Shown in pieces: positions 1-13,356 of a stretch of DNA of 15,202 nt (positions within the stretch are counted from its first letter, which is position 1; the number at the start of each line of letters is the position of its first letter). The notes under the pieces are model-generated. The model was not told where the DNA came from and did not search any database. It was given only the letters and a program-made list of their open reading frames with translations. Made by a program: the position numbers and the translations under genes. This stretch comes from Vicinamibacteria bacterium (lineage in GTDB: Bacteria; Acidobacteriota; Vicinamibacteria; Vicinamibacterales; 2-12-FULL-66-21). The stretch lies in NCBI GenBank assembly GCA_025937075.1, contig JAICSD010000050.1, positions 1 through 15,202 of the forward strand. The letters run 5' to 3'.

Positions 1-958
1 AGGTCGCCTTCAGCTTGATCGTACCCGTTGTCGCATCGACGGAGTTGTCGATGAAGTTCACCTGGCCGACTTCGAGCGGCCCCTTGGCAGCGGTTGGCTG
101 CACGGCGGGTGCCGGCGCCTCCGGATTGGACCCCGCGGCAGTCGAATCGTGCGACGGAGGCCCGCCGCTGCCCGCCGCCGGAGCGCTCTGGATGCGCGCC
201 TGGACGTCGAGCGGCTTCTGCGCCTGGTACCGGCGGATCTCCGTCAAGTAGCGGCCCGGGACGGCGAACGTGACGTAGATGGGAGAAATCTGGTTGATGA
301 CCAGCAGAGGCGTGGTGTCGTTGGCACGCACGAGATCCCCGACGTGCAGGCTCACCGCTCCGGCGCGGCCGGAAATCGGAGACGCGATCTTCGTGTACTG
401 AAGATTGAGCCGCGCCGTCTCGACCGCTGCCTGATCGGCCTGAAGGGTTGCCTGCTGAGCGGAGGCCGTGGCGGTCTGTGTCTCGTACTGATCGCGCGGA
501 ATCAGACCGCGTTTATAGAGGTCCTCGTAGCGCGCCTGCTGCGAGACCGAATTCTTGGCAGTCGCGGTGTCGCGTGCCAGGACGGCCTGTGCCTGCTGGA
601 GCGCCGCCTCGAACGGACGCGGATCCAGAGTAAAGAGGAGCTGTCCTTTTCGAACCTCCTGCCCTTCGATGAAATGAATTGCGCTCAGCTGGCCGGTGAC
701 TTGCGCGCGGATCTGAACAGTCTGAAGGGCTTCCGCGGTCCCGACGGCCGGGATCGTCAGCGGCACGGCTCTCGTGACCACGCGGGTCGTCGTGACCGGC
801 ACCGGTCCGCCAGCGCCACCGCGGCCTCCGCGTCCGCCTCCGCGGCCCTGCTGAGCTGTCGCGGCGGCGGAGGGTTTCTCGGACGAGCAGCCGGCCAGCG
901 TCAGGCTGAGGATCGCGACGACAAATACGAACAGGTTACGGGGGAGATGATTACGCAT
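1..958 (-). CDS. RND efflux periplasmic adaptor lipoprotein (MdtA/AcrA-like), 3' end off window
   Basis: Membrane-fusion subunit that would link an inner-membrane RND pump to an outer-membrane channel. The visible 319 residues start at ATG 958-956. They open with a hydrophobic stretch (about 9-22) and the lipobox LAGC (Cys24), so the mature protein should be a lipoprotein. A Gly/Arg run at 39-51 follows, then a lipoyl half (QIRAQVTGQLSAIHF, GQEVRKGQLLFTLDPRPF at about 82-116), a helical hairpin rich in Gln and Ala (about 117-188), the second lipoyl half (YTKIASPISGRAG, about 188-200) and the start of the beta-barrel (SPIYVTFAVP). This order is diagnostic of the family. An Ala/Pro/Ser-rich insert at about 258-293 sits before GQVNFIDNSVD, where relatives have a short loop. 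No good Shine-Dalgarno is visible, and an in-frame TTG directly precedes the ATG. The pump gene is presumably further left. It is divergent from the ROK gene. Confidence 0.93.
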   Translation of the reverse strand, partial: MRNHLPRNLFVFVVAILSLTLAGCSSEKPSAAATAQQGRGGGRGGRGGAGGPVPVTTTRVVTRAVPLTIPAVGTAEALQTVQIRAQVTGQLSAIHFIEGQEVRKGQLLFTLDPRPFEAALQQAQAVLARDTATAKNSVSQQARYEDLYKRGLIPRDQYETQTATASAQQATLQADQAAVETARLNLQYTKIASPISGRAGAVSLHVGDLVRANDTTPLLVINQISPIYVTFAVPGRYLTEIRRYQAQKPLDVQARIQSAPAAGSGGPPSHDSTAAGSNPEAPAPAVQPTAAKGPLEVGQVNFIDNSVDATTGTIKLKAT

Positions 959-1058
959 CAAGGCAGAAAGAGGGCTGTGTTGCTAGACGACCGCCGCGAA
1001 ACATCCGTTTACCGCGAACGCTAAGGATCTCACTGACGAGCAGTTGGCACAACATCGG

Positions 1059-1064
1059 TATACT
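1059..1064 (+). promoter_or_regulatory. Candidate -10 box (GGTATACT) of the ROK gene
   Basis: TATACT is preceded by GG, in the 85-bp-plus gap between the divergent adaptor and kinase genes. No convincing -35 hexamer stands at 16-18 bp. A start of transcription about 7 bp downstream would fall near 1071, only 3 nt before TTG 1074, giving a nearly leaderless message. A similar GGTACACT stands before the lipoprotein gene at 5630. Confidence 0.35.
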
Positions 1065-1073
1065 ACGGGTGCC

Positions 1074-2105
1074 TTGCCCTCACGACGTGTCTACATTGGC
1101 ACCGACGGCGGCGCCACCACCTCGAAAATCGGCGCAGTCTGGAGCGATACCGCAGCCGTCGTATCCACACGCCTGCTGCAGCGGCCCACACGGGCGGATG
1201 CCGGGCCGCTCGCCATGGTGCGGGGCTGGGTCGAGGCCATCAGCGAGTATCTGGACGCAAACGGCCTGACCTGGGCCGCGATGGATGGGGTCGGTCTGGC
1301 GATTCCAGGTCCCTACGAGCGCTACGGCGTCTTCGGCCACTCGCCGAATCTGCCGTCAAGCTTCGAAGGCTTTGACGTGCACACGGCCTACGAGGATTCG
1401 CTCTCGCAGCAGGCCGGCCGCGCGATTCCACTCGTCGTCGGCAACGACGGCAACATGGGCGGCGTGGCCGAGGCGCAGCGCGTGCGCGGCAACTCGACCG
1501 CGACGGTGATGATGCTGGCGCCTGGCTCGGGCCTCGGCTGCGCGTTCGTGGACGGACACGGACTGCCGCTCGACGGCGACACGCTCTCGGGCATGGAAGC
1601 CGCGCACATGCCGGCGCCGCTGCATCTGCTGAACATCGCGCCGTATCCCTGCGGTTGCGGACGGACGTGGGGCTGCGTCGAGGTGTACACGACCATCTCA
1701 GGACTGCCCTATCTGCTCGAGGAGACGCTGACGCGATTTCCTGACCATCCTCTGCGCCGCGCGGGCGGCGATCCGAAGGCGCGCGTGTTGAGCCTTCGCG
1801 GCCTCGCGCAGAAGGAAGATCCGCTCGCGCTCGAGATCTTCGATTTCCAGGCGCGCGCGCTCGGCCTGCACGTCGCGAGCCTGGCGATGGCGCTCGATCC
1901 GGCATTCGTCGTGATCGGCGGCGGGCTCATGGATCCCGAAGCAACCACGCCATCATTCCGCGAACGGTATCTGTCGATCCTCCGCGATACCGCCGCTCCG
2001 TATCTCTGGCCGACACAGCGCAGCGGTATCACGATCGTTCCCGCCGCGCTCGGAGATCTCTCGCAGGCGATCGGCGCCGCGCTCGTCGCGCTCTATCGCC
2101 GCTGA
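1074..2105 (+). CDS. ROK-family sugar kinase (glucokinase-like)
   Basis: ATP-dependent cytoplasmic sugar kinase or N-acetylglucosamine kinase-like protein. Counting from TTG 1074 (343 residues), the phosphate-1 loop is GTDGGATTSKIGAV at about 9-22, the catalytic Asp lies in VVGNDGN (about D125), LAPGSGLGCAF at about 149-159 resembles the ROK signature, and HMP (about H178) plus a Cys cluster (about 193-201) forms the zinc site. The adenosine-site stretch VVIGGGLMD is near the C-terminus. Length is normal for ROK kinases without a DNA-binding domain, so it is not a ROK repressor. The Cys cluster reads CGCGRTWGCVE, one residue longer between the last two glycines than the usual CxCGxxGCxE. The start is uncertain: TTG 1044 is also in frame and adds ten residues. 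I prefer 1074 because the product then begins just before the nucleotide loop and the TATACT box lies between the two candidates. Substrate cannot be told from sequence. Confidence 0.9.
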   Translation: MPSRRVYIGTDGGATTSKIGAVWSDTAAVVSTRLLQRPTRADAGPLAMVRGWVEAISEYLDANGLTWAAMDGVGLAIPGPYERYGVFGHSPNLPSSFEGFDVHTAYEDSLSQQAGRAIPLVVGNDGNMGGVAEAQRVRGNSTATVMMLAPGSGLGCAFVDGHGLPLDGDTLSGMEAAHMPAPLHLLNIAPYPCGCGRTWGCVEVYTTISGLPYLLEETLTRFPDHPLRRAGGDPKARVLSLRGLAQKEDPLALEIFDFQARALGLHVASLAMALDPAFVVIGGGLMDPEATTPSFRERYLSILRDTAAPYLWPTQRSGITIVPAALGDLSQAIGAALVALYRR

Positions 2106-2116
2106 CGCGGCGACGT

Positions 2117-2172
2117 CAACCGACAACCCTCAACCGATTACCGACAACCGATAACCGTCAGCCTTCAACCGA
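2117..2172. repeat. Eight-unit heptamer array, consensus CAACCGA
   Basis: Eight contiguous 7-bp units run from 2117 to 2172: caaccga, caaccct, caaccga, ttaccga, caaccga, taaccgt, cagcctt, caaccga. Four are exact and the others keep the phase, so the period is strictly 7 with no slippage. It begins 12 bp after the kinase stop codon and ends 86 bp before the next start. Neither strand gives a strong hairpin. It is too short and degenerate for a CRISPR. The remaining 2173-2258 shows only a run of C and the GGAGG of the next gene. Confidence 0.85.
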
Positions 2173-2243
2173 CCTCCTCAGTATTCCCGCCCCCCGGGCA
2201 TGCGCCGTGCACCCTCATCCAGACCGGGAGCGAGTATCCAATT

Positions 2244-2248
2244 GGAGG
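2244..2248 (+). promoter_or_regulatory. Shine-Dalgarno GGAGG
   Basis: GGAGG ends 10 nt before ATG 2259 and is among the strongest ribosome-binding sites in the window. It fixes the start of the sorting-signal protein and suggests good translation of the first gene of the sortase cluster. Confidence 0.75.
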
Positions 2249-2258
2249 CAGAAAACTG

Positions 2259-3101
2259 ATGGGAATCAAATTCAAACTCGGCCTGGCCTGTGCGGCGATT
2301 CTGATGAGCGCCGGGCTGGCGGCCGCGCAAGGGGTGATCAACGACGACCGCTCGACGTACGTGACGTTCAGCGGACCGGTGTCGCTGCCGGGGGTGACGT
2401 TACCTGCGGGCGAATACCTCTTCCGGCTCGCGGACTCGCTGTCGAACCGCAGCATCGTGCAGGTATTCGACAAGGACCGCAACAAGATTTACGCGACGAT
2501 CCTCGCGACTCCGGCGCGGCGCCCCGAGCCCACGGATCAAGCGGTCGTGACGTTCCGCGAAACGCCGTCCGACCGGCCGCCCGCCGTGCACTATTGGTAC
2601 TACGCGGGCGAAAGATCCGGGCAGGAGTTCGCCTATCCGAAGGCAGAGGCGATGCGGATAGCGAACGCATCCGGCGAACCGGTGCTGGCGGTCGACAGCG
2701 ACTCGGCGAACATCGAGGACATGCAGAAGGGCGAAATCTCGCGCGTGCAGCCGAACCAGGCAACCATCACACAGCCTGAGCAGAGCGCGGCACCTGCGCC
2801 ACCCGCGCCAGCGCCGCAGGAAACGACTGCTCCGCCGGCGCAACCGCAGGAGACGGCACGTCCGGCGAACACGAGCGAGCCGCAGTCCAGCAAGACCGGA
2901 ACATCCGGCACCCGCGCGCCGGCCGCAACCGGCACAACCGGCACGACGCCGCAGACGGCTCCCGCGACGCCGCAAGCAACGCAGCCGCGGCGCACCGAGC
3001 TTCCGAAGACCGCTAGCGAGTTGCCGCTCGTCGGCTTCATCGGCCTCTCCGCGCTCGTGGCCGCACTGGGTCTCGGCGCACTTCGTCGTAGACTCGTATA
3101 G
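2259..3101 (+). CDS. Secreted protein with C-terminal LPKTA cell-wall sorting signal
   Basis: Predicted sortase substrate of 280 residues. A signal peptide spans about 1-23, with cleavage after LAAA before Gln24. An N-terminal domain (about 24-140) is sheet-rich and contains LPAGEYLFRLADS, IVQVFD and GQEFAYPKAEAM. I recognise it as a recurring secreted acidobacterial domain of unknown function. A disordered linker rich in Pro, Thr, Ala and Gln (about 168-247) would span the envelope. The tail is a complete sorting signal: LPKTA at 248-252, a hydrophobic segment at about 257-274, and RRR at 276-278. Class D sortases are known to accept LPxTA-type motifs such as LPNTA, and such a sortase is encoded two genes downstream. 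The next gene starts 4 nt after the stop, so they are probably co-transcribed. The final attachment site in a diderm envelope is unknown. Confidence is high for the sorting signal and low for the function of the N-terminal domain. Confidence 0.88.
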   Translation: MGIKFKLGLACAAILMSAGLAAAQGVINDDRSTYVTFSGPVSLPGVTLPAGEYLFRLADSLSNRSIVQVFDKDRNKIYATILATPARRPEPTDQAVVTFRETPSDRPPAVHYWYYAGERSGQEFAYPKAEAMRIANASGEPVLAVDSDSANIEDMQKGEISRVQPNQATITQPEQSAAPAPPAPAPQETTAPPAQPQETARPANTSEPQSSKTGTSGTRAPAATGTTGTTPQTAPATPQATQPRRTELPKTASELPLVGFIGLSALVAALGLGALRRRLV

Positions 3102-3105
3102 AGCC

Positions 3106-4059
3106 ATGCCGCGACCGCGCTTCCACCAGCTCCGCACGTTGAGTCTTGCGGTTTCGGTGTGGAGCGCGGCCGCGGCAGTCGGCCTGGCCGCTCGACCGCA
3201 GGATCCACCTCACGTTGTCTTCTCCTCCCGTACAGATCTCGTCGTCCTCCATGTGAGCGTGGTAGATCGGAAGTCGGGTTTCGTTCCAGGCCTGCCGCGC
3301 GACGCGTTCACGGTGTACGAGGATGGGAAGCCGCAAACGATTCAGTTCTTCCGCAACGAGGACACTCCTGTGACGGTTGGACTCGCGATCGACAACAGCG
3401 GCAGCATGCAGCACAAGCGCGATGCGGTGATTGCGTCGGGCCTCGCGTTCGCCGATTCGAGCCATCCGCAGGACGAGATGTTCACGATCAACTTCAACGA
3501 GCGCGTGTGGCCCGGGCTCCGGGGCCACCCGTTCACGAGCGATCACGGCGAATTGCGGGCGGCGCTCGCCGGATCGACCGCCCGCGGACAGACGGCGCTG
3601 TTCGACGCGATTGCAGCATCGCTCTCGCAGCTCGCCGCCGGTCACCAGCAGAAGCGCGTGCTGATCGTGATCAGCGACGGCGGCGACAACGCGAGCCGCA
3701 CGCGGTTCGATGACGTGCTGGATCGGGCGCTCCGAACGAACGTCGTCATCTACGCCGTCGCCTTGTACGACGAGTACGATGACGATGCGAATCCCAAGGT
3801 GCTGCGGGAGCTCGCGGCGGCAACGGGCGGAGAGGCGTTCTTTCCGCGGCACACGGAGGAGGTCACGCGGATTCTGCAGCGGATTGCGACCGACATCCGC
3901 AGCGGCTACAGCATCGGATACGTGCCCGGCGCGACCGGCGGGCACGGGTTCCGCTCGGTTCGCGTGAGCGTCCGCCCGCCCGACGGGCGCAAGGTCACCG
4001 TGCGTGCGCGCACCGGGTACGTTCTCCCCTCCACGGACGAAGACGATGGGCGGCACTGA
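3106..4059 (+). CDS. Secreted VWA-domain protein (VWFA-related acidobacterial type)
   Basis: Extracytoplasmic metal-dependent adhesion or protein-interaction domain, 317 residues. An Arg-containing N-terminus and a hydrophobic stretch (about 10-28) form a signal peptide. Residues about 37-88 make a short beta domain with LVVLHVSVVDRKSG and AFTVYEDGKPQTIQFF, typical of this acidobacterial group. The VWA fold follows. The MIDAS is complete: DNSGS (D96, S98, S100), Thr163 in GQTALFDA and Asp191 in ISDGGD. The C-terminal part (GYSIGYVPG and VRARTGYVLPS) also matches the family pattern. It lies 4 nt after the sorting-signal gene and overlaps the sortase start by 14 nt, so it looks like the middle gene of an operon. 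No clear Shine-Dalgarno is visible, so coupling to the upstream gene is plausible. It has no sorting signal of its own: LPSTD near the end is not followed by a hydrophobic stretch. Confidence 0.93.
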   Translation: MPRPRFHQLRTLSLAVSVWSAAAAVGLAARPQDPPHVVFSSRTDLVVLHVSVVDRKSGFVPGLPRDAFTVYEDGKPQTIQFFRNEDTPVTVGLAIDNSGSMQHKRDAVIASGLAFADSSHPQDEMFTINFNERVWPGLRGHPFTSDHGELRAALAGSTARGQTALFDAIAASLSQLAAGHQQKRVLIVISDGGDNASRTRFDDVLDRALRTNVVIYAVALYDEYDDDANPKVLRELAAATGGEAFFPRHTEEVTRILQRIATDIRSGYSIGYVPGATGGHGFRSVRVSVRPPDGRKVTVRARTGYVLPSTDEDDGRH

Positions 4060-4711
4060 CACGCGTGAGCGTGCGGGTGCGCGTGGGCGTGCACGGCTGC
4101 AGCTGATCCAGCTCGCGCTGTTCCTGATCGCCGGGCTCGCGCTCGGGTGGTACGCGGGTGTGTCGGCCGCGACCATCGTCGATCAACGATCGTGGCATCA
4201 GCGATCGTGGCTTCCGCCTTCAGGCGGAAGTGCGACGTGGACGGACGAGCTGCCGCGGCACGCGCCGCTTCCGCGGCGCGCGTACGTCGGCCGGCTCTCG
4301 ATCGAACGCCTCGGTCTGTCAACCGTGATCCGGGAGGGAGCGGACGATAGCGTCCTGCGGACGGCCGCCGGACACCTGTCTGACACGCCGCTGCCGGGGG
4401 ATCCCGGCAACAGCGCTGTCGCCGGTCATCGCGACACACTGTTCCGCAAGCTCGAGGACGTCCGGATCGGCGATCGGATTGCGATGGCGCGGCCGTCGGG
4501 AACGGTCTACTTCACCGTCCGCGATACGCGCATCGTGGCGCCGACGGATGTGTCCGTGCTCGCGCCCACCGAGCAGCGGACCCTGACGCTCGTCACGTGC
4601 TATCCCTTCCGCTACATCGGACCCGCGCCGAAGCGATTCGTCGTGACGGCCATCGAAGACGCGGGCGTGCCTGATCCTCCGCGCCTCGAGAGCGCGGTGC
4701 GGACGCGCTGA
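4046..4711 (+). CDS. Class D-like sortase (membrane cysteine transpeptidase)
   Basis: Membrane-anchored transpeptidase expected to cleave between Thr and Ala of LPxTA signals and join the Thr to an acceptor. Start chosen: ATG 4046, overlapping the VWA stop by 14 nt; an in-frame GTG at 4004 would add 14 residues lying over the end of that gene. Of 221 residues, about 18-40 form an N-terminal membrane anchor. The sortase core starts at VGRLSIERLGL. All three catalytic residues are present: His128 in AVAGHRDTLFRKL, Cys185 in TLVTCYPF and Arg197 in APKRFVV. A second conserved His lies in AAGHLSDTPLPG (H110). The TLVTCYPFRY pattern is class D-like. Residues about 43-62 are encoded by a repeat element with a perfect hairpin (see 4174-4230) and form a Trp/Pro/Ser-rich spacer between anchor and core. 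The last 100 nt are antisense to the convergent downstream gene. The likely substrate is the LPKTA protein two genes upstream. Confidence 0.93.
   Translation: MGGTDTRERAGARGRARLQLIQLALFLIAGLALGWYAGVSAATIVDQRSWHQRSWLPPSGGSATWTDELPRHAPLPRRAYVGRLSIERLGLSTVIREGADDSVLRTAAGHLSDTPLPGDPGNSAVAGHRDTLFRKLEDVRIGDRIAMARPSGTVYFTVRDTRIVAPTDVSVLAPTEQRTLTLVTCYPFRYIGPAPKRFVVTAIEDAGVPDPPRLESAVRTR
4174..4230 (+). repeat. Hairpin-capped ~15-bp repeat element inside the sortase gene
   Basis: Three ATCGTnnn units begin at 4175, 4189 and 4204 (periods 14 and 15). The last runs into a perfect stem: CTTCCGCC (4211-4218), loop TTCA, GGCGGAAG (4223-4230). The reading frame stays open through the element. The opposite strand translates to FRLKAEAT, a peptide I associate from memory with spurious frames in Vicinamibacteria genomes. 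The element resembles the array at 8573-8646 in unit start, period and hairpin cap. Confidence 0.75.
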
Positions 4712-5496
4712 AGCGTGAACGTCAACGAATCTTTTGGCACTTCCGTGATGAAGGGCTTGATCATCCAGCCGAGACCGAACGGCACGTCGCGCGAGAGCGT
4801 GATCGATTCGCACTGCACGTACGTTCCGCCGTCGCGCTCCAGAAAGCGCCAGTACGTGTTCAGCCGCCACATGAACCCGTGACCCTGTCCCGGCGGGAGC
4901 TCCTTTTCCGCAGGCGCGCCGGCGTCTTCCACTTCCGACACGCGCGTGCTTCGGATCGTGCTGTAGACGCGATCGGGCGCGACGGTCACGAACTGCGCGT
5001 CGTTCTCGGTGTTCAGCGTGACGCCGATCACCTTCTTCATGTAGAAGCGCAGGAAGACGCGGAAGTGATCGCCCCGATGCTCGAGAATTCTGGACCGGAC
5101 GACGTTGGGGGCAAAGAGCGCCGCGTGCCGGTCGTAGTCCTGCATCAGCCGCACCGCGTCACGAACGTGGACGGACGGTATGAAGATGATGCCGACCCAG
5201 TGATGCACGAGAGCGTCGGGGACGTCGATTTTCTCGCCGATGCGCAGCCGCTCGGTGACGACCTCACCGCGCTGCAGGCGTGTGCGCACGTCCTGCTGAC
5301 GCGCGGGCTCGAGCGTATCGAGCCAGAGGAACCCTGACGGCGATTTCACTTCGCCGCTCATGCGCCGCTCAGCTGCCGCTACGTACTGATCGAAGGCGGC
5401 GGCCGTCCGCGGGTGAAGCTCGGACGCCTCCATTGCCGCGCCGCCCACCGCGACCAATATCGCGAGCATCCCGATCAGGCGATGGATCACATTCAT
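4612..5496 (-). CDS. Secreted protein of unknown function, possibly START/SRPBCC-like
   Basis: Not assigned to a named family. The start is ATG 5496-5494, preceded at 7 nt by GAGGTG on the minus strand; upstream in-frame Met codons would add a basic, non-signal extension and are rejected. The 294-residue product begins with a signal-peptide-like stretch (MNVIHRLIGMLAILVAVGG). After about residue 50 come RLRIGEKIDVPDALVHHWVG, a long charged alpha/beta region, and WRLNTYWRFLERDGGTYVQC, then GLGWMIKPFITEVPKDSLTF, which looks like the last strand and C-terminal helix of a START/SRPBCC lipid-binding fold. That fold call is inference. About 24 basic, Gly/Ser-rich residues follow the helix. The last 33 codons, including the stop (residues 262-294), are antisense to the sortase 3' end. 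It is divergent from the lipoprotein gene, and its ribosome site lies in a small hairpin. Confidence 0.78.
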   Translation of the reverse strand: MNVIHRLIGMLAILVAVGGAAMEASELHPRTAAAFDQYVAAAERRMSGEVKSPSGFLWLDTLEPARQQDVRTRLQRGEVVTERLRIGEKIDVPDALVHHWVGIIFIPSVHVRDAVRLMQDYDRHAALFAPNVVRSRILEHRGDHFRVFLRFYMKKVIGVTLNTENDAQFVTVAPDRVYSTIRSTRVSEVEDAGAPAEKELPPGQGHGFMWRLNTYWRFLERDGGTYVQCESITLSRDVPFGLGWMIKPFITEVPKDSLTFTLQRVRTALSRRGGSGTPASSMAVTTNRFGAGPM

Positions 5497-5503
5497 CGAC
5501 GCG

Positions 5504-5520
5504 CACCTCTTTGTGAGGTG
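5504..5520 (-). promoter_or_regulatory. Inverted repeat enclosing the ribosome-binding site of the 4612-5496 gene
   Basis: CACCTC and GAGGTG form a perfect 6-bp inverted repeat around a 5-nt loop. On the minus strand the 3' arm, GAGGTG (5509-5504), is a good Shine-Dalgarno ending 7 nt before ATG 5496. In the mRNA the stem would cover the ribosome site. This is seen directly; any regulatory effect is inference. Confidence 0.45.
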
Positions 5521-5599
5521 CCGCGGTCCCACTCGACGCGCTCTCATTGATAGGCGTAATTCGCGGGCGCTGCGGCTCGCCCCCGCGAACCGCCTGGGG

Positions 5600-5605
5600 T
5601 ACACT
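5600..5605 (+). promoter_or_regulatory. Candidate -10 box (GGTACACT) of the lipoprotein gene
   Basis: TACACT, preceded by GG, lies 24 nt before ATG 5630, in the 133-bp gap between two divergent genes. No clear -35 element is seen. It resembles the GGTATACT before the ROK gene. Weak evidence on its own. Confidence 0.3.
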
Positions 5606-5629
5606 GCAGCTTACTTCGCGAGCGCTTTG

Positions 5630-6190
5630 ATGTGCCGGCGCATTCTCATCCTTGCGGCCGTGTTCGCAGGCGCGTGCGGCAGCAGTCCGGCCGCCCCCAC
5701 GCCGTCGGTGCCGGTCAGCAGCGGCGTCGCGCTGGGGACCGGCCGGCGCAATCTCACCTTCATCGGCGACTCGTTCAAGTGCGGGGACGTCCGGAACCCT
5801 CAGTCAGGCACAACCATCACTGTCGACGTGATGGTCACGTCCGAAGGCATGGCCTCGATGCTTCGCGCCGTCGACACCGACGGCGGCAGCTTCGAGATCC
5901 GCATCGAGCGCGCACCTGGCACCGGCATGTTCGGCGCCATCCCGCTCACGGGGTCGGCGCGCGGGTATGCGATCGACTCGCTCGACGATGACGTCCATAC
6001 GCCGACGGGGACGAAGCTGACCTTCGATCCCTCGGGCGCGCCGCCCGTGCCGCTGACGGGGCTCTCGCCGTTTTCCTCGTTTGCCACCGGCACCCTTCAG
6101 GGCGCCATCGAGTTCAGCCGCAACGGGATGGTCTCCTCCTGCCCGCCGGGGACTACGAGCTGGTCGTTGACGAGCAGTTCGATGGAATGA
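5630..6190 (+). CDS. Small lipoprotein of unknown function
   Basis: A 186-residue predicted lipoprotein. The start is ATG 5630, giving a short basic N-terminus (MCRR), a hydrophobic core and the lipobox FAGAC with Cys16 as the lipidated residue. A longer in-frame start at 5513 would place the lipobox about 55 residues in and is rejected. After a Pro/Ala/Ser linker (about 18-33) the mature part looks all-beta, with VTSEGMASMLRAV and GSFEIRIERAPGTG. It has two further cysteines, Cys51 and Cys171, that could form a disulfide. I recognise no family. No strong Shine-Dalgarno precedes it. It ends 101 bp before the convergent end of the 6292-8571 gene. That gap (6191-6291) is locally AT-rich and contains CACAA/TTGTG arms (6236-6254) but no hairpin with a T-tract that I would call a terminator. 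Confidence 0.75.
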   Translation: MCRRILILAAVFAGACGSSPAAPTPSVPVSSGVALGTGRRNLTFIGDSFKCGDVRNPQSGTTITVDVMVTSEGMASMLRAVDTDGGSFEIRIERAPGTGMFGAIPLTGSARGYAIDSLDDDVHTPTGTKLTFDPSGAPPVPLTGLSPFSSFATGTLQGAIEFSRNGMVSSCPPGTTSWSLTSSSME

Positions 6191-6291
6191 CCTGCTGATC
6201 ACGGTCGATGAAGGCCACAAAGATCACGATTGAGACACAAAATAATTCCTTGTGGTTGGCCGTCGGCCGTTGTCGTGGGCGGCCCTACAGT

Positions 6292-8571
6292 TCAGATCAC
6301 GATCACTTCATGATCCAGAATTGAATCCACCCGCACGACCAGCGTGCTGCCATCGATCTGGACGGGCCGCTCGACTCCCGCCACCAGCAGCCGTGCCTGC
6401 GACGGACGCGCGCCGCCACGACGCTCGATCCTGACCGTGAACGGGCCAACGGGGATCAGTTCATCGAGCGGGGCGCGCCAGGTCGCCTCGCTCGTGAGAT
6501 TCACGAGGTGAAGAATCCGGCGGTTCGGCTGCTCGTACAGGTGACAGTCGATCAGCCCTGGGCCCTGCACGGAAAGCGGAATCCTGTCCTCCGCGGCCCA
6601 TCGAACGACGTTGGCGAGCAGCGTCGCATGATCCGGCAGGTGCTCGCGCGCGTACCGCCGATCGATGTCGGCCGGCATAAAGGCGACGCGGCTCTTTCCG
6701 TGCTGCGACAGCACGAGACCTGCGACGTCGGTCTTCGGTACCCGCATCCACGACGTCTCGGGCGGATACGTCGGAAACGCGGGAACGAACGTCAGCGGAA
6801 CCGTGGCGGCGGGGTGGACCTTCAACGGCTCCAGCACGCCGCCATACGGCAGAATGTCCGTCTCGCCGAAGCCGCGAAGCACCGCGTGGCGCTTCCCCGT
6901 GACGGGCGGTTCGTCACCGATCTCGGGGCCATCGACGCGTGCGCGCAGTTCGGGACTGAGTCGCAGGTACGTGTGCACGCTGCCGGACGCCTGGCCACCC
7001 GATGGCAGTTTCGGCGTCTCGCCGATACGATGGCATGCAAAGAGGTCGGCCAGCAGGAAGTCGGCGCGCGGATCACCCCACTCGTCGTACAGACCCGTCA
7101 ATCCCGTCGCCACGAGCGATCCACCGCGCTGCACGAAGCGCCGGATCGCGGCGCCCTGCGCGTCCGACAACGCGCCGACGTTCGGGAGCACGAGCAGATC
7201 GAGGCCGGCGCCCTGCGCGTCGATGTCGTCCGCGTGGATCCCAAGGTAAGGGATGCGCGCCCGCACGAGCGCGTGCATGAACCCTGTATACGGCGCGTCT
7301 ACCCGATCGGCGGCCGCATCGCGTCCGAAGAAGTCCGTGTTCCGCTGCGACCACACGACGCCGATGCTGGCCACCGGCGTTCGATCGATCAAGTACTCCT
7401 GGTGCTGCTTCCACCAGCGCATCACCGGTTCCGCGGTGTGATACATGCGCCGGTCCTCGTGGTACGCGCCGACGTGATGCCACCACGGCTGGATGCCGCC
7501 CGCGATACCGGCAATCATCCACATCCGCGCTTCCGGAGCAGGCTTGCTCGCCAGACGGTAGTAGCCCGGACCTGATTGATACATCGCCATCGATTCGGGC
7601 GCGAGCTTCTCCCATCCGAGCAGCGCGTGCACGCGCTTTCCCGTGTCGCCGTTCTGCTGGAACCCCGTATCGTCGTCGCGCCGCTGGTGATCGAGCATCA
7701 TGATCGCGGCACGATGGCAGATCTCGCGCAGATCGCGGAACGAATGCGCCTGCGCCGTCACGGAGCCGCTGTTCATGCCGGCCCAGATGCAATCCTCGCC
7801 GCCCGATTCGCGGGTCAGGCGGTTGTTCATCTCCCAGACCTCGATCCGCCGCGCGTAGCTCCAGAGAATCCATTGCCGGTACGCCGGATCGTCCCAGTCC
7901 GCCTTGCGCGGGAGCGCCGCGCCGGTCTTCGCACGAAACCACCGATCGCAGTTGGCGCAGTAACAGATGCTCTCGCGTCCGAGCCCCGCCCAACTGTTGT
8001 CCGTGAAGCCGTCCGGATGCGAGCGCTGGATGATCTCGCGCAGGACGGAGGGCAGGTACTCGTCGTAGTACGGACTGTTGATACAGGCGACGTACTTGTC
8101 GCCGGCACGATAGGGACGCCCATCGAGATCCCGCGCGAACCAGTCCGGGTGCGCCTGGAAGAAGTCCTCCGCCGCGCGGTTCGAATCCATCCGCGCCATC
8201 ACGAAGAGGCCATCGTCGTGCGCCGCCTTCGTCAACTCACCAAAGAGATCCCGGCCATTCAGGAACTCCGCGCGATGCTGCAGTTGAAACCGGCTCGGGT
8301 AGTAGGCGACGATGCCGCCGGCGTTGATGATGACGGCCTGCACCGCTGTGCGCTTCCAGTACTCGCGCCACCACGCGATGTCGTAGCGCACGGGATCTTT
8401 CTCGGTAATGTTCGTCTGTCCCCAGAGGTACGCGCGCCGATACCACGGCGTCGCGGTGGCCGGTTGCTGCGCGCTTGCCGTGTCGATCGCACCGCGAACG
8501 GTCAGGGCGGCAGCAATGCTCCCGCGCAGGAAGGTCCGGCGAGCCATCCCTTCATCGCATTGCATGGTCAT
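6292..8571 (-). CDS. Tat-exported TIM-barrel glycoside-hydrolase-like protein with beta-galactosidase trimerisation-type domain
   Basis: Predicted exported carbohydrate-active enzyme, 759 residues from ATG 8571. Starts at 8565 or 8547 are also possible; 8547 gives MARRTFLRGS directly, a classic Tat signal ending near ASAQQ. Residues about 45-390 look like a (beta/alpha)8 barrel: VQAVIINAGGIVAYYPS, LFVMARMDSN, and HPDGFTDNSWAG (D187, D191) followed by CYCANC (C203, C205, C208). This resembles the 'hypothetical glycosyl hydrolase 6' group, related to amylase/GH42-type barrels. Residues about 400-510 (VASIGVVWSQR, DLLVLPNVGALSD and GGSLVATG) match the flavodoxin-like beta-galactosidase trimerisation domain. 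The remainder is beta-rich and ends in a small sandwich. Catalytic residues are not assigned: D187, D191 and nearby acids are candidates. It is the second gene after 8636-10108, 64 bp downstream, in the same orientation and probably the same transcript. Substrate unknown. Confidence 0.85.
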   Translation of the reverse strand: MTMQCDEGMARRTFLRGSIAAALTVRGAIDTASAQQPATATPWYRRAYLWGQTNITEKDPVRYDIAWWREYWKRTAVQAVIINAGGIVAYYPSRFQLQHRAEFLNGRDLFGELTKAAHDDGLFVMARMDSNRAAEDFFQAHPDWFARDLDGRPYRAGDKYVACINSPYYDEYLPSVLREIIQRSHPDGFTDNSWAGLGRESICYCANCDRWFRAKTGAALPRKADWDDPAYRQWILWSYARRIEVWEMNNRLTRESGGEDCIWAGMNSGSVTAQAHSFRDLREICHRAAIMMLDHQRRDDDTGFQQNGDTGKRVHALLGWEKLAPESMAMYQSGPGYYRLASKPAPEARMWMIAGIAGGIQPWWHHVGAYHEDRRMYHTAEPVMRWWKQHQEYLIDRTPVASIGVVWSQRNTDFFGRDAAADRVDAPYTGFMHALVRARIPYLGIHADDIDAQGAGLDLLVLPNVGALSDAQGAAIRRFVQRGGSLVATGLTGLYDEWGDPRADFLLADLFACHRIGETPKLPSGGQASGSVHTYLRLSPELRARVDGPEIGDEPPVTGKRHAVLRGFGETDILPYGGVLEPLKVHPAATVPLTFVPAFPTYPPETSWMRVPKTDVAGLVLSQHGKSRVAFMPADIDRRYAREHLPDHATLLANVVRWAAEDRIPLSVQGPGLIDCHLYEQPNRRILHLVNLTSEATWRAPLDELIPVGPFTVRIERRGGARPSQARLLVAGVERPVQIDGSTLVVRVDSILDHEVIVI

Positions 8572-8572
8572 T

Positions 8573-8632
8573 CAATCGTAACGCGGGCAATCGTAGCGCG
8601 GACAATCGTAACGCGGGCAATCGTAGCGCGGC
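8573..8632 (+). repeat. Four tandem 15-bp units filling the gap between two genes
   Basis: Units of 15 bp start at 8573, 8588, 8603 and 8618. Units 1 and 3 are identical (caatcgtaacgcggg); units 2 and 4 read caatcgtagcgcgg plus a or c. The alternation implies a 30-bp duplication. The array ends in a hairpin around GGCC-TTTCA-GGCC (8630-8642, longer arms roughly 8627-8646) whose loop holds the stop codon of the 8636-10108 gene. The array fills nearly the whole 64-bp spacer between that stop and ATG 8571. Confidence 0.9.
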
Positions 8633-8635
8633 CTT

Positions 8636-10108
8636 TCAGGCCCGCGTCAGGCGAATGGCGCGTCCGGCAGCGCGCAGGTTCTCGAGTCGCATCTCCGAGT
8701 ATTTACGCGACAGGATGATCCCGTGCGCGCCGCTCTCGAGCGCCGCACGCACCGCCCCGTACACGTCGTCGGGGCCGGACTTCTTTTCGTGCTCCCCGGT
8801 CGGAATATCGATCTCGATACCGGGCCAGATCTGCATCCGGCTGCCGGCACTCGCCACGGCACGTTTCGTTTCCCGGCGGACGTAATCGGCGCTCAGGCCA
8901 GCGGTCGGCAATCGGTCGAGCGGCGCTTCGTCGCCGTACTGCTGGATGCGGTACGTGAGCGCCGTCGTCTGCTCCGGGGTGAGATCCGCGAACACGGTCG
9001 AGTTGACGTTGCGGATGTACTGCGCCATGCGCGGGCCGCCGGAGTCGTGATACATGACCACCTTCAGAAAATCCGAGTACTCCGAGAACGCGCGATAGTC
9101 CTGCTCCGCGCGATAGAACGGCGCGAACGAATTCGTGTGCCACAGGTGCCATCCCATCGCCCGTGGCGCCGGCGCGTCGTGCGCCGTCCGGTACATCGCG
9201 CGGTATGTTTCGCGAAGCCCTTCGTTCCACAGGCGTTCCCACGCGAGCACCTCGGGGTGCTCGACGAGGATGCGCCAGAACGTCACGAACGCGCCGTCAA
9301 CCGGACGCGTCCCGTCCTTCATACCGCTGATCCATCGTTCGAGCGCCAGATACCCCTGCCGGGCGCGATCGACGTTGATGCCTTCCTTGCGCGCCGCCGC
9401 CTCGCAATAGGAACAGAAGCAGCCCGCCGTCGACGGGCTCGGGCCTCCACCGAGGCTCGCGCCGAGCGCGTTGTTCAGCGGTCGCTGCCGCTCACTCCCG
9501 AACATCAGGGCATCGAGCGCATACGACCGGAGGAAGTCCTGCGTGAGCCCGAGCCAGAAGTTCACTGCGTTCGGATTGCGATAGCACACGCGCGCGGCGG
9601 GCCGCCCGTGGACGTCCACCTCGAAGGCCTTGTCGAGGCCCGGCACGTCACGGCGAAAGACGTCCTCGTACCAGCCGATCACTTTCATGCCGCGCGCGTG
9701 CGCACGCGGCAGCACGTCGGCGATCACGTCGTAGCTCCCGTAATCCGGCGCCTTCTCCGGCGCGATGCTCGTGCCCTTGTAGTACTGCGGATGCGGCGTC
9801 GCGAAATTGCCGCCGTGGTAGTTGTCGTCGTACTCCTGCTTGCCGTGATCCGGCAGCGGTGTCCCGCGCGGCTGGCGACCGCCAATGCCTCGGCCGTACG
9901 TGAAGACGGCCAGGAAGAGCGTGTTGATTCCGTTCTCGGCAAAGAGATCGAGGACGCGATCGGTCCCTTCATCGAGAAACGAGACCGCGCCGACCTGAAT
10001 GCCCATCGTGCGCGCGGGCGTCTGACCCTGCATCTCTCCGGACCAGTTGAGCGCAGCGGCGCCCGCGGCGGCCGCGGCCGATCGCTCGATGAACTCGCGT
10101 CGATTCAT
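8636..10108 (-). CDS. Tat-exported TIM-barrel protein, glycoside-hydrolase-like
   Basis: Predicted exported protein of 490 residues. The start is ATG 10108-10106, with AGGGAGA (10121-10115) as ribosome site. The N-terminus MNRREFIERSAAAAAGAAAL is a Tat signal. The rest reads as a (beta/alpha)8 barrel: INTLFLAVFTYGRG, ARGMKVIGWYEDVFRRD, ALDALMFGSERQRP (E206 at a strand end, a catalytic candidate), CFCSYC (C230, C232, C235), FLKVVMYHDSGGPRM, MQIWPGIEIDIP and ALESGAHGIILSRKYSEM. This order (Glu/Asp-rich strand, then C-x-C-x2-C, then the WPGIEID strand) resembles uncharacterised GH-like barrels. No named family is certain. It precedes the 6292-8571 gene in the same orientation and shares its Tat export and Cys motif, which suggests a joint role in carbohydrate turnover. 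Its last codons and stop lie inside the hairpin that caps the repeat array. Confidence 0.82.
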   Translation of the reverse strand: MNRREFIERSAAAAAGAAALNWSGEMQGQTPARTMGIQVGAVSFLDEGTDRVLDLFAENGINTLFLAVFTYGRGIGGRQPRGTPLPDHGKQEYDDNYHGGNFATPHPQYYKGTSIAPEKAPDYGSYDVIADVLPRAHARGMKVIGWYEDVFRRDVPGLDKAFEVDVHGRPAARVCYRNPNAVNFWLGLTQDFLRSYALDALMFGSERQRPLNNALGASLGGGPSPSTAGCFCSYCEAAARKEGINVDRARQGYLALERWISGMKDGTRPVDGAFVTFWRILVEHPEVLAWERLWNEGLRETYRAMYRTAHDAPAPRAMGWHLWHTNSFAPFYRAEQDYRAFSEYSDFLKVVMYHDSGGPRMAQYIRNVNSTVFADLTPEQTTALTYRIQQYGDEAPLDRLPTAGLSADYVRRETKRAVASAGSRMQIWPGIEIDIPTGEHEKKSGPDDVYGAVRAALESGAHGIILSRKYSEMRLENLRAAGRAIRLTRA

Positions 10109-10329
10109 GACTCATCTCCCTGCCGAATGTTCACTCGCGTGATTCCCCCATCCCTGCATTGCGCCGGTCAAGCGAAAGGCGCACCCGCGTGCAATTTTGC
10201 GCAACGTCCAAATCCGTCACCAGTGCGCACATTTCGACGCGGGCCAGGGGCGAGCCCGTTGGAAAGTCGACGCACCGCGCGGGAATGGCAGCGGCATGCG
10301 CGTTGCCGTGAGCAGCCGTTCACGTACAT
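10109..10329. other. Divergent intergenic region
   Basis: The largest gap of the window, 221 bp, between the 5' ends of a minus-strand and a plus-strand gene, so it should carry both promoters. On the minus strand TTGACC (10171-10166) could be a -35 element, but no good -10 follows at 17 bp. A palindrome TTGCGCAA lies at 10197-10204 beside an AT-rich patch. I see no ribosome site before ATG 10330 and no RNA gene. Confidence 0.4.
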
Positions 10330-13300
10330 ATGCTGTCGCGAACCGACGTCCCCGCCACGCTCACGCACCCGCTCATCCTCACCCTCATTCTCGCGCCCGC
10401 CGCACTGCGCTGGTGGCTCGGAACGCGACTTCTTCGCCGCGTGGACGAAGCAACATTCCCGGAGCGGCTCGCGGCGCATCATCAGCTGAACCGCAGCGTG
10501 TTCGCCCTTACGGTGATCCTGCTTATCTGGGTGTTCCCACACTCCGCGTATTGGTCCCTGCCGCTGCTGATCCTGAGCCGGACGGCTGCAGGATTCCCGT
10601 TCCGGAAACAGATTTACAGCGAGACGTGGTCCCTCGGCGGGATGGTCTCGTTCTTCGGCAGACTGATTGTCGGCGTGTACGGCTTCTGGCTTCTTGCGCT
10701 GAACGCAACATATCTCGCGAGCCTCGCCGGAGGGTTCGACTGGTTCGTGGCCGCAGCGCTCGGCGCGATTCTAATCGCCTGGCACGAGCGGTACCCGGAC
10801 ATTCTGCTGTGGCTGCTCCGCACACGACCCATTCGGGATCGCCGTCTGCTCGAACGTTTCGAGCGAATGACAACCGCCGCGGCCCAGGGGCGACCATGTC
10901 GGTTCGAGTACGTGGACATGAAGGGCGGCGGACTCGCCAATGCGCTCGCGCTTCCGTCGCTGCGCCGATCCGCGGTCCTCTTCACGAGCACGCTGCTCGA
11001 GCGCCTCGACACCGACGAAATCACAGCGATCTGCGCCCACGAAATCGCGCACCTCGAGTACTACAACCCGGACCGGATGACGCGATACCGGCGCGTCGGC
11101 CTCTCACTGATCGCCCTTTCCGTGCTGGCGGCGCCCGTCAGCCGGCTCACGTTCCCCTCGGAAGCGGGCTATGCCTCGGTGCTGGTGCCGCTCGTGATCC
11201 TGTTCGCGCTGGGCGTGCGGGCGCGCGACCGTCAACGAAGCGAGACCGCGAGCGACCTACGCGCGGTCACGTTGTGCGGCGACGCGGATGCGCTCGCGCG
11301 CGCGCTGACGAAGGTGTATCAATTCGCGCGCGTTCCGCGCCGGTTCGATGCCTATCGCGAACGCAGCGCCACACATCCGAGCCTCGCGCGGCGCATCCGT
11401 GACATCCGTGCGGCGGCGGGACTCCAGCCGTCGCCGATCGTAGAAGCATCGACGTTCGCCGCTGCGCAGGGCCCCACGCGCGTCGTTTTCACACCTGCCC
11501 GGCTCGAGTGGCGGGAGCACGAAGGTGCGACTCACGCGCTCGAGTACAGCCACCTCTCGGAGCTGCGACTGCAGCCGCAGCGAGACGGCGCGCGGCTCAT
11601 CGCGATCGAACGGACGGGACGGCGCTGGCAGATGCCGGTTCAGGCGCGGGACCTCGCGGCCGTTCAGGCCACCCTCGACGCGGTCGACGGGCAGCTCGGG
11701 CCATTCACGGCGCCGCGCATCTCGCCTGGGTTCGCACGAGTCATGGCGCTGCTGGGCGTCCTCGTCGGCGCGGCCGCCGCACAGTTCGCGTGCGCGCTCG
11801 TCGCGTTTGTCGTATTCCTGAGGCCGAACGCAAACCTCGTCGCGGGCTCGGGCGCCGCGGCGCTGACGGCCGTCGCGCTTCTGCTCCGGGACGGTCTGGC
11901 CCGAACGGCATCGACACGGATCAGCGCGGCCGCGATGCTCGTCGTCGTCGGCCTCGGTCTGATGGCGCTCGCGTGGTTCATGCGCGGCGACAGGACCGAG
12001 TCGAGATCAATCGAGCCGGCGGCCGTCATTGGCCTTGCCGCCGCGATGGCACTGCTGGTCCTGGTGGCCGGCGGTCTCGATTCGGTTCGAATTCATCAAA
12101 GCGCTCGCGCATTGCCATCCGCAACGATCCTGCTGCTCGCCCTTGCAATGATGCTGGTGACCGACCGGTCTCGGGCGATGCGTGTGGCCGCCGTCGTGCC
12201 GCTTCTGCTCGGCGGCACAACCGCTGCCGCCGGATCGATGACCTTCCTCGATCGCTTCTGCACGGATCCGTTTCTCGTCGACAGCACGCCGGCTGCCCGG
12301 CGCTCGATCGACGTTCGCCCGCGGGTCACGTTCGAGATTCCGTTCGCGGCGCAGGAGCTCAGGCTGTCGCCCGCCGGACATCTGATGGCGATCGTCCCGG
12401 ACGAGGACAGCGATTCGGATCAGAACGTCCCGCGCACGTTCCACATCGGCGCCGCCGATGGAGCGCTCGTGCCGATCCAGGCGGACGACCTTGCGTTCGT
12501 CGACGAAGCGCACGTCCTGACGGTCAGGTTCGACGGCGCCGACGCCGAGCTTCGCGAGCTCAGCGCCGCGGCACCGCAAGACGTGCTGTGGCGCGAGCGC
12601 GTCGCTCGAATCAGGACGGGCACGCTCTCCTATTCGCCATCCACACAGGAGTGGCAGATCCGCGGCTGGTCGAACGGACGAACGCTCGTCAGCGTGCGCG
12701 GACGCCTCGAGTCAGGCGCCTCCGCGAAAACGGAATGGGCGGTGCCGAACAACGAGGGGTGGGTCAGCGCGGTAATGGCGTCGGACCGCCACGCGCTCTT
12801 CGTCGAAACATCGTACGATGCCGGCCTGTTCGACGAGGGGGATCCGTTTCGCGTGATTGATCGGCTGCTGGAGCCTCGGGCTTCTGCACGCATCTGGCGG
12901 ATGGACGAGCGCGCCGCGACACTTGCCGCCGAATCGCATCTCGACAGCGTGCGCTGCAGCACTGGCGACGCCGTTCCAGGGTCGCTCGTGTGCGCCGCGT
13001 TCGACGGGCTGAGAACGAGACTGCTGTCGGTCTCCGCAGAGACGGGCCGCGTCACGCCGCTCAGCGCAGTCGACGGTTGGTTCCTGCCGTCGAATCGGAC
13101 CACCGCCGGCTGGATCACCGGATCGATCAAGTGGACACCTGTTGCGCTGCGCACATCGACGAACGAAATGCTGCGGCTGCCCTCGCACACTCACGAATGG
13201 ACGCAGGCGATCGCGGCCGCGGCGGACACGATTGTCACGGTGTCCAGCGCTGATGCGAATGTCGTGAGGGTGTACACACTACCGGCGCTCGTCCTTCACT

Positions 13301-13356
13301 CGTCTCGCAGTATCACCACCGGATCCAATCGCGCCGCCGCGCGACTCGGGAGGTAA
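10330..13356 (+). CDS. Membrane M48-type zinc metallopeptidase with long C-terminal multi-TM and sensor-like extension
   Basis: Integral-membrane protease of 1008 residues, far longer than HtpX/Ste24-type enzymes (about 280-450). The peptidase part covers about 1-365: membrane segments near 12-30, 57-82, 109-158 and 255-297; zinc motif CAHEIAH (H237, E238, H241); third ligand probably E305 in RQRSETASD; and ATHPSLARRI at 347-355, matching the HPS motif of M48. Residues about 385-455 (VVFTPARLEW, LSELRLQPQRDG) resemble a small bacterial PH-like domain. A second membrane block follows at about 471-636. The end (about 650-1008) is soluble, with repeated short sheet motifs (LRLSPAGHLMAIVPD) suggesting a beta-propeller-like domain on the far side of the membrane. 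Domain calls after 385 are inference. ATG 10330 has no visible Shine-Dalgarno. The last 61 nt overlap the convergent permease gene. The natural substrate is unknown. Confidence 0.87.
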   Translation: MLSRTDVPATLTHPLILTLILAPAALRWWLGTRLLRRVDEATFPERLAAHHQLNRSVFALTVILLIWVFPHSAYWSLPLLILSRTAAGFPFRKQIYSETWSLGGMVSFFGRLIVGVYGFWLLALNATYLASLAGGFDWFVAAALGAILIAWHERYPDILLWLLRTRPIRDRRLLERFERMTTAAAQGRPCRFEYVDMKGGGLANALALPSLRRSAVLFTSTLLERLDTDEITAICAHEIAHLEYYNPDRMTRYRRVGLSLIALSVLAAPVSRLTFPSEAGYASVLVPLVILFALGVRARDRQRSETASDLRAVTLCGDADALARALTKVYQFARVPRRFDAYRERSATHPSLARRIRDIRAAAGLQPSPIVEASTFAAAQGPTRVVFTPARLEWREHEGATHALEYSHLSELRLQPQRDGARLIAIERTGRRWQMPVQARDLAAVQATLDAVDGQLGPFTAPRISPGFARVMALLGVLVGAAAAQFACALVAFVVFLRPNANLVAGSGAAALTAVALLLRDGLARTASTRISAAAMLVVVGLGLMALAWFMRGDRTESRSIEPAAVIGLAAAMALLVLVAGGLDSVRIHQSARALPSATILLLALAMMLVTDRSRAMRVAAVVPLLLGGTTAAAGSMTFLDRFCTDPFLVDSTPAARRSIDVRPRVTFEIPFAAQELRLSPAGHLMAIVPDEDSDSDQNVPRTFHIGAADGALVPIQADDLAFVDEAHVLTVRFDGADAELRELSAAAPQDVLWRERVARIRTGTLSYSPSTQEWQIRGWSNGRTLVSVRGRLESGASAKTEWAVPNNEGWVSAVMASDRHALFVETSYDAGLFDEGDPFRVIDRLLEPRASARIWRMDERAATLAAESHLDSVRCSTGDAVPGSLVCAAFDGLRTRLLSVSAETGRVTPLSAVDGWFLPSNRTTAGWITGSIKWTPVALRTSTNEMLRLPSHTHEWTQAIAAAADTIVTVSSADANVVRVYTLPALVLHSSRSITTGSNRAAARLGR

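Follow-up and report, generated by a model that had tools for sequence, protein, structure and literature searches.

A sortase gene kept beside its candidate LPxTA substrate, in part together with a von Willebrand factor A protein, in Acidobacteriota

Sortases are known from the textbooks as tools of Gram-positive bacteria. When a sortase gene lies next to a gene for a protein with a sorting signal in a bacterium with an outer membrane, the question is what the enzyme acts on and where its product ends up. Such a locus is present in the stretch analysed here, i.e. 15,202 nucleotides (nt) of contig JAICSD010000050.1 (assembly GCA_025937075.1, positions 1 to 15,202 of the forward strand) from the acidobacterium Vicinamibacteria bacterium (Acidobacteriota), hereafter called the window. 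Three neighbouring plus-strand genes encode an exported, putative sortase substrate (SUB), a secreted von Willebrand factor A protein (VWA) and a membrane-anchored sortase (SRT). The anatomy of this locus, its conservation and its genomic linkage are established below. We regard it as fairly probable that the genes belong to a dedicated sortase pathway, in which SRT links SUB to peptidoglycan and the head of SUB may hold VWA.

SUB (2259..3101, 280 amino acids (aa)) starts with an ATG that is preceded by GGAGG at 2244-2248. Its signal peptide was recognised by eye. The following core domain (residues 25-165, 2331..2753) yielded a beta-rich AlphaFold2 model (mean pLDDT 90.0, pTM 0.84), for which structural comparison gave no clear fold match. 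A variable, low-complexity linker of about 80 residues rich in Thr, Pro, Ala and Gln (residues 166-247, 2754..2999) leads to the C-terminal sorting signal (residues 248-280, 3000..3098), which reads LPKTASELPLVGFIGLSALVAALGLGALRRRLV, i.e. LPKTA at residues 248-252, a hydrophobic helix and RRRLV. The sorting-signal model TIGR01167 accepts SUB (17.2 bits, cut-off 15.9, E 0.0062); with PF00746 it stays below the cut-off (14.8 versus 20), and the tail layout is present in the sequence itself. VWA (3106..4059, 317 aa) follows after a 4-nt gap. It is a full member of the acidobacterial TIGR03436 family (198.4 bits, cut-off 81.25), passes PF00092 (34.2 bits, cut-off 23.8) and has no sorting signal of its own. 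By the residue pattern that we take to define a metal ion-dependent adhesion site (MIDAS), this site is intact, as DNSGS is present together with the Thr in ARGQT and the Asp in ISDGG. SRT (4046..4711) overlaps VWA by 14 nt and comprises 221 aa with the ATG at 4046 as start, or 235 aa with an alternative GTG at 4004. It matches PF04203 with 103.5 bits (cut-off 26.6), and His128, Cys185 and Arg197 are invariant among 32 aligned sortases. The gene spacing, the three-part tail, the intact MIDAS, the complete His/Cys/Arg set and the placement of signal and VWA domain on separate proteins had all been described in the initial annotation of this locus, and they were borne out.

With SUB as query, 735 relatives were found, among them one (P0002) nearly identical to the window protein, and the tail statistics were taken from the best 120 of these 735. 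In 119 of the 120, the motif [LM]PxT[AG] plus helix was found at the C-terminus (LPxTA 116, LPxTG 2, MPxTA 1), while the remaining one (P0077) is a record without the C-terminal tail. In the 119 tails, position x of the motif is K, R or H in 106, and S or G stands right after the motif in every one. In 30 aligned sequences the mean column identity reaches 0.84 at the motif versus 0.35 in the preceding linker (residues 166-245). Judged from these alignments, the SUB tail is not a chance feature. More distant SUB homologues without the tail exist as well. Two homologues (P0004, P0055) carry Vicinamibacterales names, and identical longest-contig values for some SUB and SRT homologues (e.g. P0031/P0137, 5727; P0038/P0189, 71154) suggest that these perhaps lie on shared contigs. 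Two SUB proteins (P0028, L023) apparently have repeated core domains and only one tail. The core shows a weak and partial likeness to DUF2911 (PF11138), with E ≤ 0.05 in 31 of 59 aligned members (best 3e-5); however, the window SUB gives no match, and nine scanned relatives reach at most 23.9 against the gathering threshold of 27.

The initial annotation had proposed that the three genes form a module and had suggested a search for a conserved gene order in related genomes. We counted the same-strand order around 100 distinct SUB-core frames, i.e. those of the window and of loci reached through SUB or through the sortase, some of them cut by contig ends. The order SUB-VWA-SRT was kept in 16 cases (window included) and SUB-SRT in 30, whereas SUB-SRT-VWA occurred once, SUB-VWA five times and SUB alone 48 times; most modules contain one SUB gene. 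A fourth conserved gene was not found, as no cluster of flanking frames beyond SRT, SUB and VWA exceeds 13 of the 92 sortase loci; the largest of these clusters (13 loci) is response-regulator-like by eye.

The genome-wide tests were made in relatives of the window's host. Scanning a species-genome collection with the SUB alignment gave 103 relatives, of which 80 were kept, in 79 loci. For a two-by-two comparison of tail and adjacent sortase, 6 truncated frames, 10 contig-end rows and all loci fetched for their sortase were left out, and A, G, S, N or D was allowed after the Thr of the motif (S or D in four rows: L003, L027, L046, L051). Of the 68 scorable SUB frames, 31 have both a tail and an adjacent sortase and 33 lack both; a tail alone occurs in 4 and a sortase alone in none (Fisher p 2.4e-15, the relatives not being independent of each other). 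In two of the tail-only cases (L024, L032) a further SUB gene lies close to a module but on the other strand from its sortase, and for the other two (L002 in genome G002, L054 in G225) the sortase is located on another contig. A sortase is encoded somewhere in 10 of 16 checked genomes with a tail-less SUB (8/9 plus 2/7); hence, the tail tracks the adjacent gene rather than just the genome as a whole. Four contig-end rows have a tail, and the genomes of two of them (L033, L060) possess a sortase.

A survey of 199 acidobacterial genomes, drawn evenly and of unstated completeness, extended this linkage of tail and enzyme across the phylum, in line with the proposed module. Sortases were found in 37 of these genomes, at 49 places. 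The tail profile A5, for which 24 tails reached through SUB and none reached through sortases were used, gave 29 matches at E ≤ 1e-5, which fell into 23 of the 37 sortase-bearing and 0 of the 162 sortase-free genomes; rows of the profile itself had come from no fewer than two of these 23 (G003, G006). A second profile (A3; 35 tails, including 11 reached through sortases) yielded 36 strong matches, again with none in the 162 sortase-free genomes. By this profile, 28 of the 37 sortase-bearing genomes have 1-4 strong tails and 9 have none; exactly one tail is present in 23 of the 37 and exactly one sortase in 28. At most 38 candidates were scored per genome, and some tails were possibly missed. 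One-to-one pairing of enzyme and tail is not universal, because one genome (G222) has a single sortase and four strong tails (C46, C54, C116, C178) on contigs without a sortase match, and another (G218) has four sortases.

What kind of sortase is SRT? It had been called class D-like. The class D models indeed score best, which makes class D the best placement by sequence, but both curated class D cut-offs are missed (NF058671, 127.5 bits versus 140; NF033746, 122.8 versus 165), so that class D chemistry applies to SRT only by analogy. Of five related sortases that lie beside a SUB and were scanned, three just exceed 140 and all stay under 165. Among the NCBIfam sortase models SRT passes only the general TIGR01076 (74.5, cut-off 39.35); it scores far worse as class C (68.3, cut-off 160), and as class GN it does not reach the cut-off of TIGR03784 (90.6 versus 158.25). 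The LPxTA signal and a diaminopimelate-type wall are further likenesses to class D; however, that class is known from Gram-positive spore formers, and the SUB signal runs on as ASELPLVG, compared to ATN in the model's name. The earlier statement that class D enzymes use LPxTA signals is valid for SrtC of Bacillus anthracis, for which passages of PMC3297441 describe a cut of LPNTA between T and A and the use of meso-diaminopimelate (m-Dpm), but not for the whole class, since the Clostridium perfringens enzyme prefers LPQTGS according to passages of PMC4498605. At 4182-4230, inside the sortase gene, two tandem copies of a 15-nt unit occur together with the near-perfect palindrome TTCCGCCTTCAGGCGGAA; this stretch lies after the membrane helix of SRT and ahead of its catalytic domain. 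None of the 193 fetched loci has the palindrome in its exact form, and the close homologues P0124 and P0126 have related RSWLPPSG stretches; the region may be an element resembling repetitive extragenic palindromes (REP-like) that was taken up into a linker.

Dedicated sortase and substrate genes side by side, with a VWA domain involved, are also known from other bacteria with an outer membrane, namely as class GN sortase (TIGR03784) and its TIGR03788-type target. Passages of PMC3237569 describe these as gene cassettes holding the sole LPXTG example of their genomes. However, VWA domain and tail are there on one protein, whereas the window system has them on two, and SUB (12.8) and VWA (11.2) do not reach the TIGR03788 cut-off of 551.65. 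Using phmmer to assign the neighbours for a sortase tree, we found 12 acidobacterial loci with a sortase beside a TIGR03788-like frame (L101, L106, L110, L114, L116, L117, L118, L120, L122, L125, L132, L133). Eleven sortases beside such frames form one clade (100/97) with no SUB-linked sortase inside. TIGR03784 was passed by all five sortases scanned from these loci, and of six targets scanned four were above the TIGR03788 cut-off and two somewhat short of it. Because TIGR03788-like frames adjoin acidobacterial sortases, the TIGR03784/TIGR03788 pair is not confined to Proteobacteria; VWA-sortase pairs had been attributed to marine proteobacteria, where they are known, but they occur in Acidobacteriota too. 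In the same tree, 44 of 45 SUB-adjacent sortases are separated from the class GN ones by the deepest split, whose support is weak (85/88). Another clade (L089, L090, L093, L094, L113; 99/89) adjoins only MPxT[AG] tails, a pattern in which co-evolution of motif and enzyme is possible; a large neighbour in L113 had no family match. Passages of PMC3174227 tabulate six sortases for Candidatus Solibacter usitatus.

The VWA protein belongs to a large family, with 13-29 TIGR03436 matches per genome in six relatives. Our VWA tree has 47 rows, two genes being entered twice; of 30 paralogue loci fetched, 15 are represented by a row, and the others were too weak or short to pass the filter. A branch (98/96) separates 25 rows from the remainder; these comprise all 19 sortase-adjacent VWAs and six more (L018, L021, L029, L044, L052, L071), which likewise lie near a SUB gene. 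The VWAs of L018 and L029 are on the opposite strand, facing away from SUB, and those of L052 and L071 adjoin a tail-less SUB. Hence, the window VWA is a TIGR03436 member, but of the branch that sits beside SUB. This branch seems tied to SUB, whereas the sortase is tied to the tail.

How could such a pathway work in this cell envelope? The assumption of a lineage with an outer membrane was corroborated by Omp85, present in 22 of 22 hand-picked relatives. Searches of the open-access literature for diaminopimelate in Acidobacteria gave nothing usable, and the wall chemistry was therefore read from the type of MurE: a full MurE is encoded in 21 of the same 22 relatives, and all 21 contain DNPR, which we take to be the motif of the diaminopimelate-adding enzyme. 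Given this MurE type and the precedent of B. anthracis SrtC, the diaminopimelate side chain of peptidoglycan is by analogy the most likely acceptor for SUB. SUB would be exported and, through its C-terminal helix, stay in the inner membrane. The active site of SRT should face the periplasm, where it would cut between T and A of LPKTA, hold SUB on Cys185 and pass it to an amine, most likely that of a meso-diaminopimelate side chain, carried by lipid II or by peptidoglycan. The flexible linker would then tether the beta-rich SUB head to the wall. VWA, without an anchor, is probably the protein that SUB holds or works with. Display at the surface and retention at periplasmic peptidoglycan fit this scheme equally well. 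We are more doubtful about a narrower version, in which an acidobacterial pathway of its own divides anchor and adhesin between two proteins: the domain tethered by class D-like anchoring would serve as docking site for a dedicated MIDAS protein from the expanded acidobacterial VWA family. This is possible, but we lean somewhat against it.

Besides the missed class D cut-offs, several observations count against a dedicated pathway of this kind. VWA is optional, as 30 of the 47 SUB-SRT pairs lack it on the same strand. The branch of SUB-associated VWAs is not exhaustive: 22 rows stand outside, one of which (L021, 1393-2583) lies about 1.1 kb from an opposite-strand SUB, and the VWA beside the tail-less SUB of L022 is not among the tree rows. 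One SUB-linked sortase (L121) falls with the class GN sortases at the deepest split, and M at the first motif place also occurs outside the MPxT clade (e.g. L014, L031, L097, L105). One locus (L130), fetched through its sortase and thus outside the two-by-two comparison, holds the sole sortase-adjacent SUB frame that lacks a tail at its C-terminus; this frame (5052-6065) contains a tail-like stretch that is followed by about 90 further residues, possibly due to a frameshift or a different architecture. For the tailed contig-end rows L021 and L044 no sortase was shown in the genomes, the contigs ending shortly after VWA. Moreover, 6 of the 29 A5 matches are far from any sortase; by A3, tails more than 2.5 kb from a sortase amount to 7 of 36 in the survey and 9 of 33 in the 27 locus genomes, and sortases without a strong tail within 2.5 kb to 20 of 49 and 7 of 31, respectively. 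Some of these sortases adjoin TIGR03788-like frames, have a weaker tail or sit at contig ends. With relaxed thresholds, A5 finds one sortase-free genome at E ≤ 1e-3 (G219, 2.6e-4, inside a 3114-aa frame) and five at E ≤ 0.01 (G044, G067, G157, G178, G219), and weak partial A3 matches are common at E 0.1. Finally, searches of the open-access literature turned up no paper on an acidobacterial sortase cassette and no experiment with an acidobacterial sortase.

The acceptor is also the point at which another explanation enters. SRT might free SUB rather than anchor it, by transfer to water, a small amine or an acceptor other than peptidoglycan, e.g. a component of the outer membrane or of exopolysaccharide, and SUB would be free or exported to the surface. 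The presence of an outer membrane would suit this, and so would the tail-less SUB homologues, which are presumably soluble; furthermore, passages of PMC1569441 on the exosortase/PEP-CTERM idea tie a similar tripartite tail to exopolysaccharide export. The class D precedent and the diaminopimelate-type MurE instead favour peptidoglycan. Wall-anchored proteins, moreover, typically have just the linker-plus-tail layout seen in SUB. We consider release unlikely on balance, yet as the most serious competitor of anchoring to peptidoglycan.

Polymerisation, with SRT joining SUB to SUB or to VWA in a pilus-like or composite fibre, appears improbable to us. It would make sense of the joint encoding of SUB and VWA, all the more as VWA tips are known in sortase pili, and of the repeated cores that some SUB proteins seem to carry; however, the poor class C score of SRT, the missing sorting signal of VWA and the single SUB gene of most modules speak against it. 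Least of all do we believe in a mere chance neighbourhood of three genes for secreted proteins, with a sortase that serves other proteins. Some VWA adjacency could be accidental in genomes with so many family matches, and SUB-SRT pairs without VWA are common. But accident leaves the linkage of tail and sortase over 68 loci and 199 genomes unaccounted for, as well as the grouping of the sortase-adjacent VWAs in the tree. Anchoring of SUB to peptidoglycan by a dedicated SRT is the explanation that we prefer.

Dedicated Gram-negative cassettes (passages of PMC3237569) and LPxTA-using class D systems were already known; what is distinct here is the split of anchor and VWA on two proteins and a substrate domain of its own. 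Conservation of the pair or trio in many relatives is not the usual picture in bacteria with an outer membrane. A conserved version with one enzyme and few substrates in an abundant diderm phylum offers a simple test of what a sortase uses as acceptor under a second membrane. Furthermore, a possible role is suggested for one branch of a large and unexplained acidobacterial VWA family.

The remaining window contributed few minor observations. A 330-aa frame on the minus strand (4612-5604) overlaps the 3' end of SRT by 100 nt, tail to tail, and had no Pfam or NCBIfam match. Besides TIGR03436, the ADOP family was matched within the window; both families, like the Vicinamibacterales names of P0004 and P0055, assign the DNA to Acidobacteriota. 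Between two minus-strand genes, at 8573-8631, a 30-nt unit, CAATCGTAACGCGGGCAATCGTAGCGCGGA, is repeated in tandem in 2 copies with 100% matches.

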